Assembly: GCF_021560175.1 (NCBI RefSeq)
Contig: NZ_CP091110.1
Span: 96,001-160,000, forward strand
From: Neobacillus drentensis
Lineage (GTDB): Bacteria > Bacillota > Bacilli > Bacillales > Cytobacillaceae
DNA length: 64,000 nt
Reading direction: 5' to 3'
Numbering within the stretch: position 1 is the first letter of the stretch; each line of letters opens with the position of its first letter. The position numbers and the translations under genes were made by a program. The notes beneath the pieces were generated by a model. It had not been told where the DNA came from and did not search any database. It saw only the letters and a list, made by a program, of their open reading frames with translations. Of the stretch, positions 58,358 through 64,000 are shown in pieces.

Positions 58358-58432
58358 ATGACTCTGATTGGAGTAATTTATCATCAAAAATCCAATTTAT
58401 TAATTCATAATGTCAGGGGGGTATTTTCGTAA
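58358..58432 (+). CDS. Possible 24-residue leader peptide before the PQQ dehydrogenase
   Basis: GAGGAGGTATA is followed by an ATG and an open frame of 24 codons (MTLIGVIYHQKSNLL at the start, NVRGVFS at the end). Its TAA overlaps the ATG of the dehydrogenase (TAATG). The ribosome site is stronger than needed by chance, and the overlap suggests coupled translation. It is not a second PqqA: it has no Glu and lacks the E-x3-Y motif. Function unknown; it could also be untranslated. Confidence 0.45.
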   Translation: MTLIGVIYHQKSNLLIHNVRGVFS

Positions 58433-60357
58433 TGCAATTTTTAAAGTCATTAGGTTTAGTCTTGCTAGCGAGTATGGTTATAGTTGGCTGTCAGTCAAAT
58501 AATGACAAGAATAATGCAAAAAACAAAGGGGAAACCAAGGAATCCAACCAGGCAAATCAGAAAGATGAGACAGGATTCCCAAATTGGGGGTATGACTTTC
58601 AACATACCCGACATGTGCCCTATAAACAGATTACAAAAGATAATGTGAAAAAAATGGGGATTGCATGGCAGCAGGATATCTTAGATTGGAATAACGATGT
58701 CCCAAATTTACAAGAAGATTTCCCGGTCGTTCACGACGGGGTCATGTATGTGACTAGTGCGAAAAATCATGTGTTTGCGATCGATGCCGCAAGTGGAAAG
58801 AAACTTTGGGCATGGACACCGCCCAAGGACGTACTTGATCATATTAATGGTTTGCCATGGCAGTCTAATGTGGCAAGCAGGGGTGTCGCAGTGGCCAATG
58901 GAAATGTATTTGTCTTGATGATCGATAATCGACTGGCCAAACTTGATGCGAAGAACGGAAAACTGTTAAAAATGGTCAACTTTTGGGATCATGAACCTTC
59001 TATCAAGTTAGAAAACAGATATTATGAATCTTCTGCTCCGATGTACTATGATGGCAACGTTTACGTTGGAAGCAGCGGCGGTGATAATGGTACAAGAGGT
59101 TTTGTTTGGGCTTTTAAAGCAGATACATTGGAACCGCTATGGAAAGAGCCGTTTTGGACCGTTCCTGAAAGAGGAACGGGTTGGGCAAAAGGTAAATATA
59201 CAGGCGGAGGTTCCGTATGGACACCGATGTCGTTTGATCCAGATACTGATATGATGTATTTTGCAGTAGGGAATCCAGCCCCGGACTTTTATGATGCAGA
59301 TAGAAAAGGAAAAAATCCATATACCGATTCTATCACTGCTTTAGATAGTAAAACAGGGAAGTTAAAGTGGTCATCTACTCAAGTTGATCATGATATATGG
59401 GATTATGACGCTGCCGCGACACCGATGATTCTCAATGCAAAAGTCGGCGGGAAAAAGCAAAAGGTTGTGGTTGAAGGCGGTAAAAATGGAAAGTGGTATG
59501 CGTGGGACGCAAAAACAGGGAAAACCATTTATGATGGGGTACCTTTTGTAAAAATTCAACATTCAGACATACCAAGCGATGAGAGTAAGGCTGTACTTCA
59601 ATGGCCAGGAACGCCAGGTGGAGAAAGCTATGCCCCGCAGACTTATGATCCCGAAACCAACTATGTGCTTATTCCTGGTATTAATAGTCCTAATTTAATG
59701 GTAGCAGCTAAAGATGCAGAAGAGATTGCAAAAGATAATAATACCTTCCCAGGAACAAAGATCCTTCCTTTGCCAAAGGATGTTGATGTTTCTGGTACCA
59801 TTACAGCAATTGATATGAATACAGGGAAAAAAGTATATCAAAATAAAACGGATGATCCGATGTATGGCGGATTCACAAGTACTGCTGCTGGTCTTGCTTT
59901 TTACGGGGAATTGGGTGGAAACGTAAATGCTCTTGATGTTAAAACAGGCAAAGTATTATGGAGTATGCAAAGTGGAGGAAAACAAATCAAAATGGCACCT
60001 TCCATATATACAGTTGACGGGCATGAATATGTTGCAGTCATTACTGGTGGTACGAAGGTTGTTGTTTATGGTCTCGGAGGTAAGTTAAAACCTGGAGCCA
60101 TAAATAAAAATGCAAAATTACAAGGAGAAGCAGACGTAGTTATCGATCCGGAAAAGGTATACAAAAGAAGTTGTATTTCCTGTCACGGGGATAATCTCCA
60201 AGGCGCAACAGCTCCAAATCTTCAACACATAGGTAAAACTATGTCTAAAGAGGACATATTGAATAAAATTCTAAATGGTGGCGACCGCATGCCTGCAGGC
60301 ATGGCTAAAGGTGCAGAGGCTGAAGCACTAGCGGATTGGCTATCCAAAAAGAAATGA
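58432..60357 (+). CDS. Lipoprotein quinohemoprotein (PQQ-dependent) alcohol dehydrogenase with heme c domain
   Basis: The 641-residue protein oxidises an alcohol with PQQ and passes electrons to a bound heme c, then to the respiratory chain. A signal peptide ends in lipobox IVGC (Cys20). The eight-bladed PQQ propeller (about 45-550) shows GSSGGDNGTRG (213-223), GGGSVW with the PQQ-stacking Trp263, the metal ligand Asn281 in VGNPAP, and HDIWDYD with catalytic Asp324 and extra Asp326, the mark of lanthanide-type enzymes. The usual metal Glu is Asp218 and the vicinal Cys pair is absent. The heme domain has CISCH (581-585) and Met620. GGGGGG precedes the ATG. The natural alcohol is unknown. Confidence 0.93.
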   Translation: MQFLKSLGLVLLASMVIVGCQSNNDKNNAKNKGETKESNQANQKDETGFPNWGYDFQHTRHVPYKQITKDNVKKMGIAWQQDILDWNNDVPNLQEDFPVVHDGVMYVTSAKNHVFAIDAASGKKLWAWTPPKDVLDHINGLPWQSNVASRGVAVANGNVFVLMIDNRLAKLDAKNGKLLKMVNFWDHEPSIKLENRYYESSAPMYYDGNVYVGSSGGDNGTRGFVWAFKADTLEPLWKEPFWTVPERGTGWAKGKYTGGGSVWTPMSFDPDTDMMYFAVGNPAPDFYDADRKGKNPYTDSITALDSKTGKLKWSSTQVDHDIWDYDAAATPMILNAKVGGKKQKVVVEGGKNGKWYAWDAKTGKTIYDGVPFVKIQHSDIPSDESKAVLQWPGTPGGESYAPQTYDPETNYVLIPGINSPNLMVAAKDAEEIAKDNNTFPGTKILPLPKDVDVSGTITAIDMNTGKKVYQNKTDDPMYGGFTSTAAGLAFYGELGGNVNALDVKTGKVLWSMQSGGKQIKMAPSIYTVDGHEYVAVITGGTKVVVYGLGGKLKPGAINKNAKLQGEADVVIDPEKVYKRSCISCHGDNLQGATAPNLQHIGKTMSKEDILNKILNGGDRMPAGMAKGAEAEALADWLSKKK

Positions 60358-60373
60358 TTTCTACTCTAGCAGC

Positions 60374-60414
60374 AATCCGAGTCTGACTTCTTTAACGGAC
60401 TCAGATTATTTCTT
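60374..60414 (+). terminator. Weak terminator after the PQQ dehydrogenase
   Basis: AATCCGAGTC pairs with GACTCAGATT (one mismatch) around a 14-nt loop, followed by ATTTCTT. The run of T is poor, so read-through to the next gene is possible. Confidence 0.5.
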
Positions 60415-60476
60415 AAAAGGATAAATATAGATTGGCGAAACATCAGATATTCACGATAAATAAGGATGGTGGTAAA

Positions 60477-60941
60477 ATGAGAAAATTACTGAATTATACC
60501 GTGCGATTCATTGGTGCCGCCTTATGTATTTCCTTAGTCTTTGGATTTGCTTCCCCAACTTTGACTAATGCTCAATCAAGTATAGGTTTAGGTTCGTCCG
60601 AGGATAACGGAATCAGGTTAACCATCAATGACTATTCGATAATAAACCACGGCCAAGACATTCAGCTGCATTATACGATAAACACAAATTCAAATATACA
60701 AGTTAGTTCGAATACTAAAAGTTTGATTGAAAACCCGTATATTTGGATTGGGAATACGTTAGTCCGTGAGGAATCAGAATCGTTTAAGAAGGTAAGTAAG
60801 AATGAGTATAGAGGGACGATAATAGCACAGATGCATCATTACCGAACCGATAATTCTAAAATGTCATTTCATACGCATGGAATATTGAATCAAAAGGGTC
60901 AATGGACAGTTGATTTTATGTTAAAGAGTAGTCAGTACTAA
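60477..60941 (+). CDS. Secreted protein of unknown function
   Basis: The 154-residue product has a signal peptide (MRK, hydrophobic 11-25, cleavage after TNA at 32) and a small beta-rich domain starting GIRLTINDYSIINHGQDIQL. This resembles, by eye, extracellular DUF4179/DUF5643-type domains of Bacillus, but no named family can be claimed. ATG 60477 follows GGATGGTGG; a TTG at 60432 would add a hydrophilic stretch before the signal. It does not look like the XoxJ/MxaJ partners of methanol dehydrogenases. A strong terminator follows, so it may share a transcript with the dehydrogenase. Confidence 0.75.
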   Translation: MRKLLNYTVRFIGAALCISLVFGFASPTLTNAQSSIGLGSSEDNGIRLTINDYSIINHGQDIQLHYTINTNSNIQVSSNTKSLIENPYIWIGNTLVREESESFKKVSKNEYRGTIIAQMHHYRTDNSKMSFHTHGILNQKGQWTVDFMLKSSQY

Positions 60942-62816: not shown

Positions 62817-62818
62817 TG

Positions 62819-63556
62819 ATGCTGGAGCAAAAAGGGTTCATCAACCGTAATAAAAAAAGAGAAGAGCTTTGGTCGGCGGATGAATTCACGGAGCGGCTAA
62901 GGAATGTAGGGAGTTCTTCTTATCATGACAAACATCCATTTCATATCGTAATGCACCAAGGAAACTTAAGCAAAGAACAGATCTGCGGCTGGGTGGCCAA
63001 CCGATACTACTACCAGAAATCAGTCCCAATTAAAGATGCAGCCATTCTGTCAAATCTGCCGTCAAGGGAACTGAGACGGGAGTGGATTGGCCGCATTCTT
63101 GATCATGACGGAAGGCCTGGTGAAGATGGCGGTATTGAAGCATGGCTGCGGCTGGGAGAAGCGGTAGGATTATCTCGGGAAGAAGTCATACGGGAAGAGC
63201 ATGTGGTCCCGGGTGTTCGATTTGCGGTGGATGCCTATGTGAACTTTGCTCGGACAAAACCGTGGATTGAAGCGGTTGCCTCAAGCTTGACGGAATTGTT
63301 TTCGCCTGACCTTATCTCAAAAAGGATAAAAGTTTTTGAGCAGCTGTATCCTTGGATTGACCGTTCAGGGCTTGATTATTTTCAAAGCCGCTTGACACAA
63401 GCACCTTGTGATTCGGATGTGGCCCTCAGGCTTGTTTTAACACAATGTCGAACACCAGAAGCGCAGCAGCGGGCTGTCAATGCATTAAGGTTCAAATGTG
63501 ATGTATTATGGGCACAGCTTGATGCAATCGAAAAGGCCTATCCCTCTAAACCGTGA
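62819..63556 (+). CDS. pqqC: Pyrroloquinoline-quinone synthase PqqC
   Basis: PqqC catalyses the final ring closure and eight-electron oxidation to PQQ without metal. The 245 residues contain the family blocks [37 protein letters not shown] and [19 protein letters not shown], with the active-site His, Tyr and Glu. ATG 62819 is 7 nt behind GGAGG; ATG 62816, overlapping the pqqB stop, is the alternative. Confidence 0.96.
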
Positions 63557-63573
63557 CTAGGAAAAATAAATGA

Positions 63574-63915
63574 TTGGTGGTGGAGTCTATTTTTGTAGCT
63601 GGCAGTCCTCCAAAACTCGCTGCAAAGGCGCGATTAAAATTTGATAAAGTGAGAGAAAAACATCTCCTTTTGCTGCCGGAAAAGGTTGTAGTCCTAAACG
63701 AAACTGCAGCGTCGATCCTTCGTTTATGTGACGGGAGCCGGACCGTAAATACCATCACTGAATACATCAGGAATTCTCTAATGGCAGGCTCAGAAACAGG
63801 AAGTTCGGGTGCTGTGCCCGAATTGAAAACAATGGAGGCTGACATTTCCGAATTTTTACAGGAGATGGCGGATCAGGGATGGGTGGTGATTCAGCATGAA
63901 GACGCAGAGCCATAG
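63574..63915 (+). CDS. pqqD: PqqD, peptide chaperone for PqqA, somewhat long
   Basis: PqqD holds PqqA and delivers it to PqqE. The product of about 113 residues has [40 protein letters not shown] blocks and [11 protein letters not shown]. Usual PqqD has about 90 residues; here extra residues lie after SLMAG (about 70-90). No ATG starts the frame: TTG 63574, GTG 63577 and GTG 63580 are candidates, with only a weak AGGA site. It overlaps pqqE by 20 nt. Confidence 0.9.
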
Positions 63916-64000
63916 TGCCGTTCAACCCCCTTATTCGCTGCTTGCTGAATTAACCCATCGCTGTCCTTTACATTGTCCGTATTGTTCAAACCCTATTGAA
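63896..64000 (+). CDS. pqqE: Radical SAM enzyme PqqE, N-terminal fragment cut by the window end
   Basis: PqqE links Glu and Tyr of PqqA through a carbon-carbon bond. The 35 visible residues run [20 protein letters not shown] and then [15 protein letters not shown], with the CxxxCxxC motif that binds the radical SAM cluster. ATG 63896 lies within pqqD, in the usual overlapping order. The rest lies outside the window. Confidence 0.95.

Follow-up and report, generated by a model that had tools for sequence, protein, structure and literature searches.

A complete PQQ biosynthesis cassette beside a quinohemoprotein dehydrogenase in Neobacillus drentensis and related Bacillota

The DNA analysed here (the window; 64,000 nucleotides, bases 96001–160000 of the 6.26 Mb one-contig genome of Neobacillus drentensis) ends in genes for the synthesis of pyrroloquinoline quinone (PQQ), which lie beside the gene for a quinohemoprotein dehydrogenase, ADH1. 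Judging from its genes this genome very likely synthesises PQQ, and we propose with good confidence that the cassette supports PQQ synthesis for the co-resident PQQ enzyme; the best explanation of the data is that Bacillota carry a self-contained PQQ cassette. Export of the cofactor, use of lanthanides and initiation of pqqB at AUU are less certain. The fullest reading that we considered is a mobile cassette through which Gram-positive spore formers would gain PQQ respiration that depends on lanthanides, equipped with an exporter of its own from the major facilitator superfamily (MFS), a new family of small PQQ-linked membrane proteins (mem79) and a pqqB gene throttled by a conserved AUU start codon; on present sequences it appears unlikely to be correct in all of these parts at once. 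Coordinates are those of the window, with genes on the forward (+) strand, unless prefixed L002, a fetched stretch which reaches past the window end and carries the whole of pqqE and the genes downstream. Gene names outside NCBIfam and Pfam matches were assigned by eye.

All five Pqq proteins exceed the cut-offs of the NCBI PQQ equivalog families. The 24-residue precursor PqqA (61525–61599) carries the Glu-x3-Tyr motif (EVTMY) and scores 25.9 bits with TIGR02107 (NCBIfam equivalog, cut-off 20), falling below the cut-off of the Pfam PqqA family (19.0 vs 21.1). PqqB (61884–62816, start assigned to ATT) scores 378.5 bits with TIGR02108 (cut-off 245), PqqC (62816–63556) 339.3 bits with TIGR02111 (cut-off 240), PqqD (63574–63915) 66.0 bits with TIGR03859 (cut-off 46) and the whole PqqE protein 499.4 bits with TIGR02109 (cut-off 381.35). 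The pqqE gene occupies 63896–64000, runs on beyond the window and is whole at L002:6897–8039. An earlier note on this DNA had read pqqA-B-C-D and the beginning of pqqE here, with a quinohemoprotein dehydrogenase directly behind rpsI and beside the pqq genes. Each of these genes was confirmed, pqqE being complete just past the window edge and the dehydrogenase lying at 58432–60357, and the equivalog scores and fetched flank bear out the view of a complete PQQ pathway with a PQQ-using enzyme in a Bacillus-type genome.

In PQQ synthesis PqqE, with PqqD, cross-links a Glu and a Tyr of PqqA, a protease frees them, and PqqB and PqqC complete PQQ in the cytoplasm; the products of the present cassette would be expected to act in the same way. 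No pqqF was recognised by eye at the cassette, where no dedicated search for it was made. The gene set, with proteins of equivalog level, is that of the pqqABCDE operons of Pseudomonadota, whose A-B-C-D-E order is presumably the one found here; unlike those operons, the cassette has mem79 between A and B, an MFS gene behind E and a PqqB start at ATT. Behind the MFS gene (L002:8320–9576) stands, at L002:9955–15915, a heterocycloanthracin/sonorensin-type precursor gene (TIGR03601, 62.6 bits, cut-off 35), then three genes recognised by eye as modifying genes of the thiazole/oxazole-modified microcin (TOMM) type. With such a precursor so placed, the pqq genes might yield another peptide-derived product, perhaps tied to this thiazole-peptide cluster, with the dehydrogenase a mere neighbour. 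We consider this highly improbable, since all five proteins pass PQQ cut-offs and since thiazole genes were matched in three of 17 fetched family neighbourhoods (L021, L029, L032), compared to a PQQ-type dehydrogenase beside pqq in 17 of 17. PQQ synthesis for the neighbouring enzyme also has a likeness in another Gram-positive organism, Mycobacterium smegmatis, in which, according to PMC3023750, a PQQ cassette and its one PQQ alcohol dehydrogenase gene likewise stand together; that cassette is actinobacterial, and is likened to ours by description rather than by sequence.

The earlier note had also considered that the contig might join two organisms at about 58 kb. Related neighbourhoods share the setting, with a whole rpsI, a PQQ dehydrogenase (ADH1, or ADH2, the second such enzyme of this genome) and pqq genes together in six of the 17 fetched family neighbourhoods (L021, L022, L026, L029, L034 and L035) and also in Heyndrickxia camelliae (L069) and Bacillus sp. 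FJAT-49736 (L073); a joined contig was thus rejected. Nor are the genes common across Bacillaceae, and the view that they are rare in Bacillota held, though they are not unique to this genome. Of the 193 genomes sampled in the GTDB family, 18 have a PqqC above cut-off, 14 of them belonging to the window's genus and four to three other genera; 45 further family genomes show no more than weak matches far under the cut-off. In a class-wide sample a PqqC match at E 1e-40 was present in one of 398 genomes, the window's own. A scan of one genome per species, from which the best 80 of 541 relatives were kept and which is thus no census, gave among those 80 a set of 32 Bacillota PqqC loci: 21 Bacillaceae-type loci (Neobacillus, Bacillus sp., Heyndrickxia, B. 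timonensis, Salirhabdus, Fictibacillus, Fredinandcohnia, Oceanobacillus and one metagenome-assembled genome, MAG) and 11 from Cohnella and Paenibacillus. Ten loci are common to the family set and this named-species set; the merged set of 29 genomes used below comprises eight family loci and the 21 named loci, each once.

In a PqqC+PqqE tree of 77 rows, taken from the 80 best matches to a Bacillota query, the 22 Bacillaceae-type rows (including the window) form one clade with Shimodaira–Hasegawa-like approximate likelihood ratio (SH-aLRT) support of 100, which joins 11 Paenibacillaceae rows and one Acidobacteria MAG with support of 97. The pqq genes read as an old Bacillota lineage of patchy presence, and a recent import from Pseudomonadota is without support in this tree of best matches; the earlier note had put forward no donor. 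Plasmid origin was also rejected: 217 plasmid records match PqqC, and the ten commonest organism names and 20 records shown are non-Bacillota, the best at 62.6%, with 21 further organism names outside those shown. Among the titles and abstract openings listed in a partial search of open-licence literature, none reports PQQ genes in these genera, and we do not claim a first mention. For Paenibacillus polymyxa E681, PQQ has been put forward as a candidate factor with reference to others (PMC6429003); pqq genes are reported among four endophyte genomes (PMC6930893) and served as bait in B. amyloliquefaciens (PMC5541019), and one further paper only cites a pqq paper (PMC8933404). The loci described here place genes for both the synthesis and the use of PQQ in named, culturable Bacillota hosts.

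The cassette is apparently mobile, and the distribution of rpsI fragments suggests that it may spread horizontally with rpsI as a frequent home. In the window rpsI lies at 57681–58070, and its 3' end with the terminator is the unit found repeated in relatives: G161, G162 and Heyndrickxia J6TS2 carry a copy immediately after the MFS gene, G151 has the rpsI terminator alone in that place and G103 a copy of the rpsI 3' end further downstream. In G147, G139, G141, G140, G103 and J6TS2 the dehydrogenase gene is preceded by a piece of the rpsI 3' end, and the stretches fetched include no complete rpsI. We interpret these repeats as scars left when the cassette was transferred out of an rpsI home. 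Integrative and conjugative elements and integrative and mobilizable elements of streptococci reportedly integrate at the rpsI 3' end, and likewise have it repeated beside the inserted DNA; the present repeats, unlike theirs, are diverged and often absent. Mobility is made less certain by two results, namely that neither an integrase nor a relaxase was recognised by eye in the open reading frames (ORFs) of six loci, for which no profile search was made, and that a second rpsI 3' end is not clearly present in the window's genome (other matches being at most 19 bases). A decayed rpsI-terminator-like stretch of 37 bases is present at L002:15981–16016, behind the TOMM-type genes. The relocated cassette of G147 stands between two overlapping pieces of a single ATPase-like gene, identified by eye (L024:4316–4783 and 14846–15592).

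ADH1 has the general features of a quinohemoprotein, a PQQ propeller (Pfam PQQ PF01011, E 9.6e-73) and a C-terminal cytochrome c domain (PF13442, 5.9e-11) with the c-type haem motif CISCH, together with a lipoprotein signal recognised by eye and the metal-site motifs GGDNGTRG, GNPAPD and WDYDAA. We describe it as divergent because its TIGR03075 score (methanol/ethanol subfamily) is under the cut-off, at 297.8 vs 480.05 bits; five further Bacillota enzymes also fail (289–475 bits), and one Verrucomicrobia and one Pseudomonas enzyme pass. The C-terminal domain resembles the Bacillus cytochromes c550/c551, below their cut-offs, for which reason the electrons of ADH1 probably pass to cytochrome c oxidase; the enzyme would oxidise some alcohol or aldehyde, its own c-type haem handing electrons to the respiratory chain. 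The 11 Paenibacillaceae dehydrogenases are without a fused cytochrome. A look for other PQQ enzymes, suggested in the earlier note, was made by a Pfam PQQ scan of the genome (E 1e-5) and gave two propeller proteins, ADH1 and ADH2, the latter at 2.99 Mb with the same metal motifs, a CMSCH haem motif and its own hyp155 homologue. At L163:5187–11504, ADH2 and this homologue stand about 2.7 kb from an IS110-type transposase-like ORF, identified by eye.

Both ADH1 and ADH2 contain WDYD and thus the D-x-D pair of lanthanide-dependent PQQ dehydrogenases, in which a second Asp stands two residues past the catalytic Asp, and this pair is present in 59 of 59 rows (58 distinct) of the metal-site alignment. 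We infer from it that ADH1 may use lanthanides, the apo-dehydrogenase binding PQQ and, in a D/N/D-x-D site, a lanthanide (or Ca2+); were the site to work as it looks, lanthanide biochemistry would extend to Gram-positive spore formers. With PedH and XoxF, ADH1 has in common the quinoprotein sequence, the Asn and the D-x-D pair, but it differs from them in its fused Bacillus-type cytochrome c, in an Asp in place of a Glu which we take to be a metal ligand of XoxF and PedH, and in the absence of a vicinal Cys pair. These last two differences raise the alternative that PQQ is made, but that the dehydrogenase is an ordinary Ca2+ enzyme in which D-x-D is merely inherited, and to this we attach close to even probability. 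The Glu position is Asp in all 43 rows of ADH1's Bacillota branch, whereas Glu stands in the remaining 16 of the 59 rows, which include nine Bacillota enzymes with lengths of 736–804 amino acids. In a single-sequence PDB search with ADH1, other alcohol dehydrogenases (8gy2, 1kv9 and 1kb0) come first, with 6ZCV and 6ZCW fourth and fifth; a 21-row profile ranks 6ZCV and 6ZCW first among matches below E 1e-150, but it contains a Pseudomonas enzyme (30% identity to ADH1). Together with the TIGR03075 score, these results weaken the case for lanthanide use. Against an ordinary Ca2+ enzyme stands the D-x-D pair in every row, and the three best single-sequence matches, presumably Ca2+ enzymes, carry Thr where ADH1 has the second Asp. 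PMC11996626, which identifies 6ZCW as PedH, bears on both sides: D-x-D is given as the lanthanide signature, with the extra Asp essential for lanthanide coordination in several enzymes, yet m-GDH has the motif and is predicted to be only facultatively lanthanide-dependent. PedH and PedE are compared for the lanthanide signature in PMC5487730.

Further dehydrogenase homologues occur in pqq-negative genomes. Those of L053–L056 are cytochrome-free, 554–669 amino acids long, and have GTKGSEWF or GTKGGEWF where the pqq-linked enzymes of Bacillaceae have GGKNGKWY/F; these proteins may lack PQQ binding, or may rely on PQQ from their surroundings. L057–L060 and L062–L065 encode quinoproteins of 746–804 amino acids whose metal site reads WDMDPA/S or WDLDPA, and are possible PQQ users without a maker.

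Three accessory genes accompany the cassette. The first, mem79 (61655–61894), encodes a protein with two hydrophobic stretches, both moderate (19-residue peaks of 1.47 and 1.51), and a loop D-L-x-x-P-x-P-x-G-D which is invariant in 13 rows, some of them partial. The earlier note had described an unknown membrane protein inserted into the pqq order; the gene is indeed there, but rather than a mere insertion it is a standing companion of such clusters. It was matched (E <= 0.001) in all 18 PqqC-positive and none of 175 PqqC-negative family genomes. Among the named-species loci, 16 of 21 of Bacillaceae type and 10 of 11 of Paenibacillaceae have a match, and in the latter the gene sits right before that of the dehydrogenase. 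The second, hyp155 (60477–60941; 154 amino acids, signal-like N-terminus), stands beside the ADH1 and ADH2 genes and was found in 17 of the 18 pqq-positive family genomes, with a weak match in one pqq-negative genome. Full-length dehydrogenases at 60% identity or more are similarly distributed (17 of 18 pqq-positive, 0 of 175 pqq-negative), the eighteenth pqq-positive genome (G094) having a distant dehydrogenase beside pqq and 22 PqqC-negative genomes holding more distant homologues. Nothing shown for mem79 or hyp155 of the window reaches a Pfam curated cut-off. By this association mem79 would be a dehydrogenase-linked membrane partner, and mem79 and hyp155 together may assist the dehydrogenase.

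The third gene, for the MFS transporter, was matched (E <= 1e-70) in 18 of 18 PqqC-positive and 0 of 175 PqqC-negative family genomes and lies 222 to 2345 bases behind pqqE in 17 fetched neighbourhoods, with 62–100% identity. The exit of PQQ from the cytoplasm is an unsettled step, for which this gene offers a concrete candidate: because the PQQ users look like lipoproteins outside the membrane, the MFS protein is a candidate PQQ exporter, which would deliver the cofactor to them. The close linkage and exact co-occurrence tell against a hitch-hiking efflux pump that exports no PQQ, yet such a pump remains a real possibility, to which we give somewhat less than even weight, as its NCBIfam matches fall short of their cut-offs and point to a mix of transporters, many of them drug-efflux types, the gene is split over two frames in G124, and no homologue was found at E 1e-5 in the 11 Paenibacillaceae loci. 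For all three genes, several results reduce the force of the association. The counts are inflated by shared ancestry, although the dehydrogenase beside pqq is not always the same: G144 pairs ADH2 with a pqq cluster 96–100% like that of the window, and in G162, from another genus, ADH1 (95%) and hyp155 (92%) are close to their window counterparts and the adjacent pqq genes stand at 70–76%. Genomes were scored on their best six first-look candidates (dehydrogenase search) or best nine (MFS search). Among the 21 named Bacillaceae-type loci, six (L080–L085) have no PQQ dehydrogenase within about 10 kb, mem79 was not found in L080, L081 and L083–L085, and the MFS gene was not found in L082. Other neighbours recur elsewhere: an M19 dipeptidase-like peptidase, identified by eye, follows pqqE in seven of seven Cohnella loci (e.g. 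L094:12071–13054) and is unmatched in four Paenibacillus loci, and a presumed secreted protein adjoins the dehydrogenase gene in 11 of 11 Cohnella and Paenibacillus loci.

The start of pqqB is unusual. In the window its frame opens at 61878, two codons before the ATT at 61884, and the first ATG, GTG or TTG is codon 98, so that PqqB cannot start at a usual start codon. Codon 1 is ATT in 18 of 18 family clusters and in 20 of the 21 named Bacillaceae-type loci, with ATA in Oceanobacillus (28 ATT and one ATA in the merged set of 29); all 11 Paenibacillaceae pqqB genes start with ATG or GTG. The start region (61860–61904) consists of a Shine-Dalgarno-like GAAAGGA with TGA, then ATTCGAATTAGAGT. The upstream sequence GAA.GGA.TGAA is conserved in the 29 genomes, and in six examples its pairing with the 16S end falls into two blocks. 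Synonymous conservation is higher near the start, the mean share of the top codon being 0.88 in codons 1–7 (the residue varies at codon 4) compared to 0.65 at 153 later conserved codons. The ATT overlaps the end of mem79 in the window; elsewhere mem79 ends in differing frames, and in seven of the 29 (L023, L080, L081, L083–L085 and L087) it is not upstream of pqqB. The conservation of the start holds despite this difference in frame or position.

We infer that pqqB initiates at AUU. Were the gene instead read from a usual start, by frameshifting or through a longer frame, the ATT would be an internal codon; this has some appeal in four exceptional loci, L081 having GTG at codon 5 and L083–L085 an ATG, GTG or TTG 6 to 15 codons upstream. 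It is nevertheless improbable, since 25 of the 29 genomes have no ATG, GTG or TTG from the upstream stop to codon 37, TAA immediately precedes the ATT in L030, the PqqB N-terminal motif begins at codon 9, and the start region is kept where mem79 ends in another frame or is elsewhere. Besides these four loci, the pairing energies temper the proposal of an AUU start: the 29 pqqB genes span -9.9 to -12.7 kcal/mol (median -10.6), while random 24-mers have their median at -4.2 and their 5% tail at -10.7, and 47 window genes, taken at the most favourable of four candidate starts, come to -13.4. With energies near the random tail and weaker than those of typical window genes, the pairing is conserved but not strong. 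Translation of pqqB from AUU behind the conserved Shine-Dalgarno-like sequence should be a weak step, which if true would tie cofactor synthesis to the state of the initiation factors. As an example of a near-cognate start that is conserved, pqqB is clear-cut and open to experiment. Gene callers limited to ATG, GTG and TTG would trim at least 36 codons off PqqB in 25 of the 29 genomes.

In the same genome infC probably starts at ATT, judging by its Shine-Dalgarno sequence and what we take to be Bacillus practice; a TTG lies upstream in frame and an ATG four codons downstream of this candidate. Near-cognate starts are also described, in PMC13009471, for Staphylococcus aureus cvfC1 (AUU) and ccpN, infC and citZ (AUA), with the AUA of ccpN kept in B. 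subtilis too and expression from such starts about 10% of that from AUG in poor medium. The cross-species conservation of cvfC1 and ccpN starts behind a Shine-Dalgarno sequence resembles that of pqqB, which differs in being a cofactor-biosynthesis gene inside a cluster and in its not especially strong pairing. Three non-Bacillota MAGs (L099, L123 and L119) have a pqqB without ATG, GTG or TTG near the start, two with ATC behind a Shine-Dalgarno-like sequence and the third with ATT; this small set is a lead rather than a result.

Within the window, a terminator-like inverted repeat with a T-run, read directly, lies between hyp155 and pqqA (61003–61040, + strand), the computed stem (L002:4004–4031) being on the minus strand only. 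On the fetched flank the order is pqqE, the MFS gene, the heterocycloanthracin-type peptide and its presumed modifying genes, gerA/B/C-like genes, cwlD and salA.

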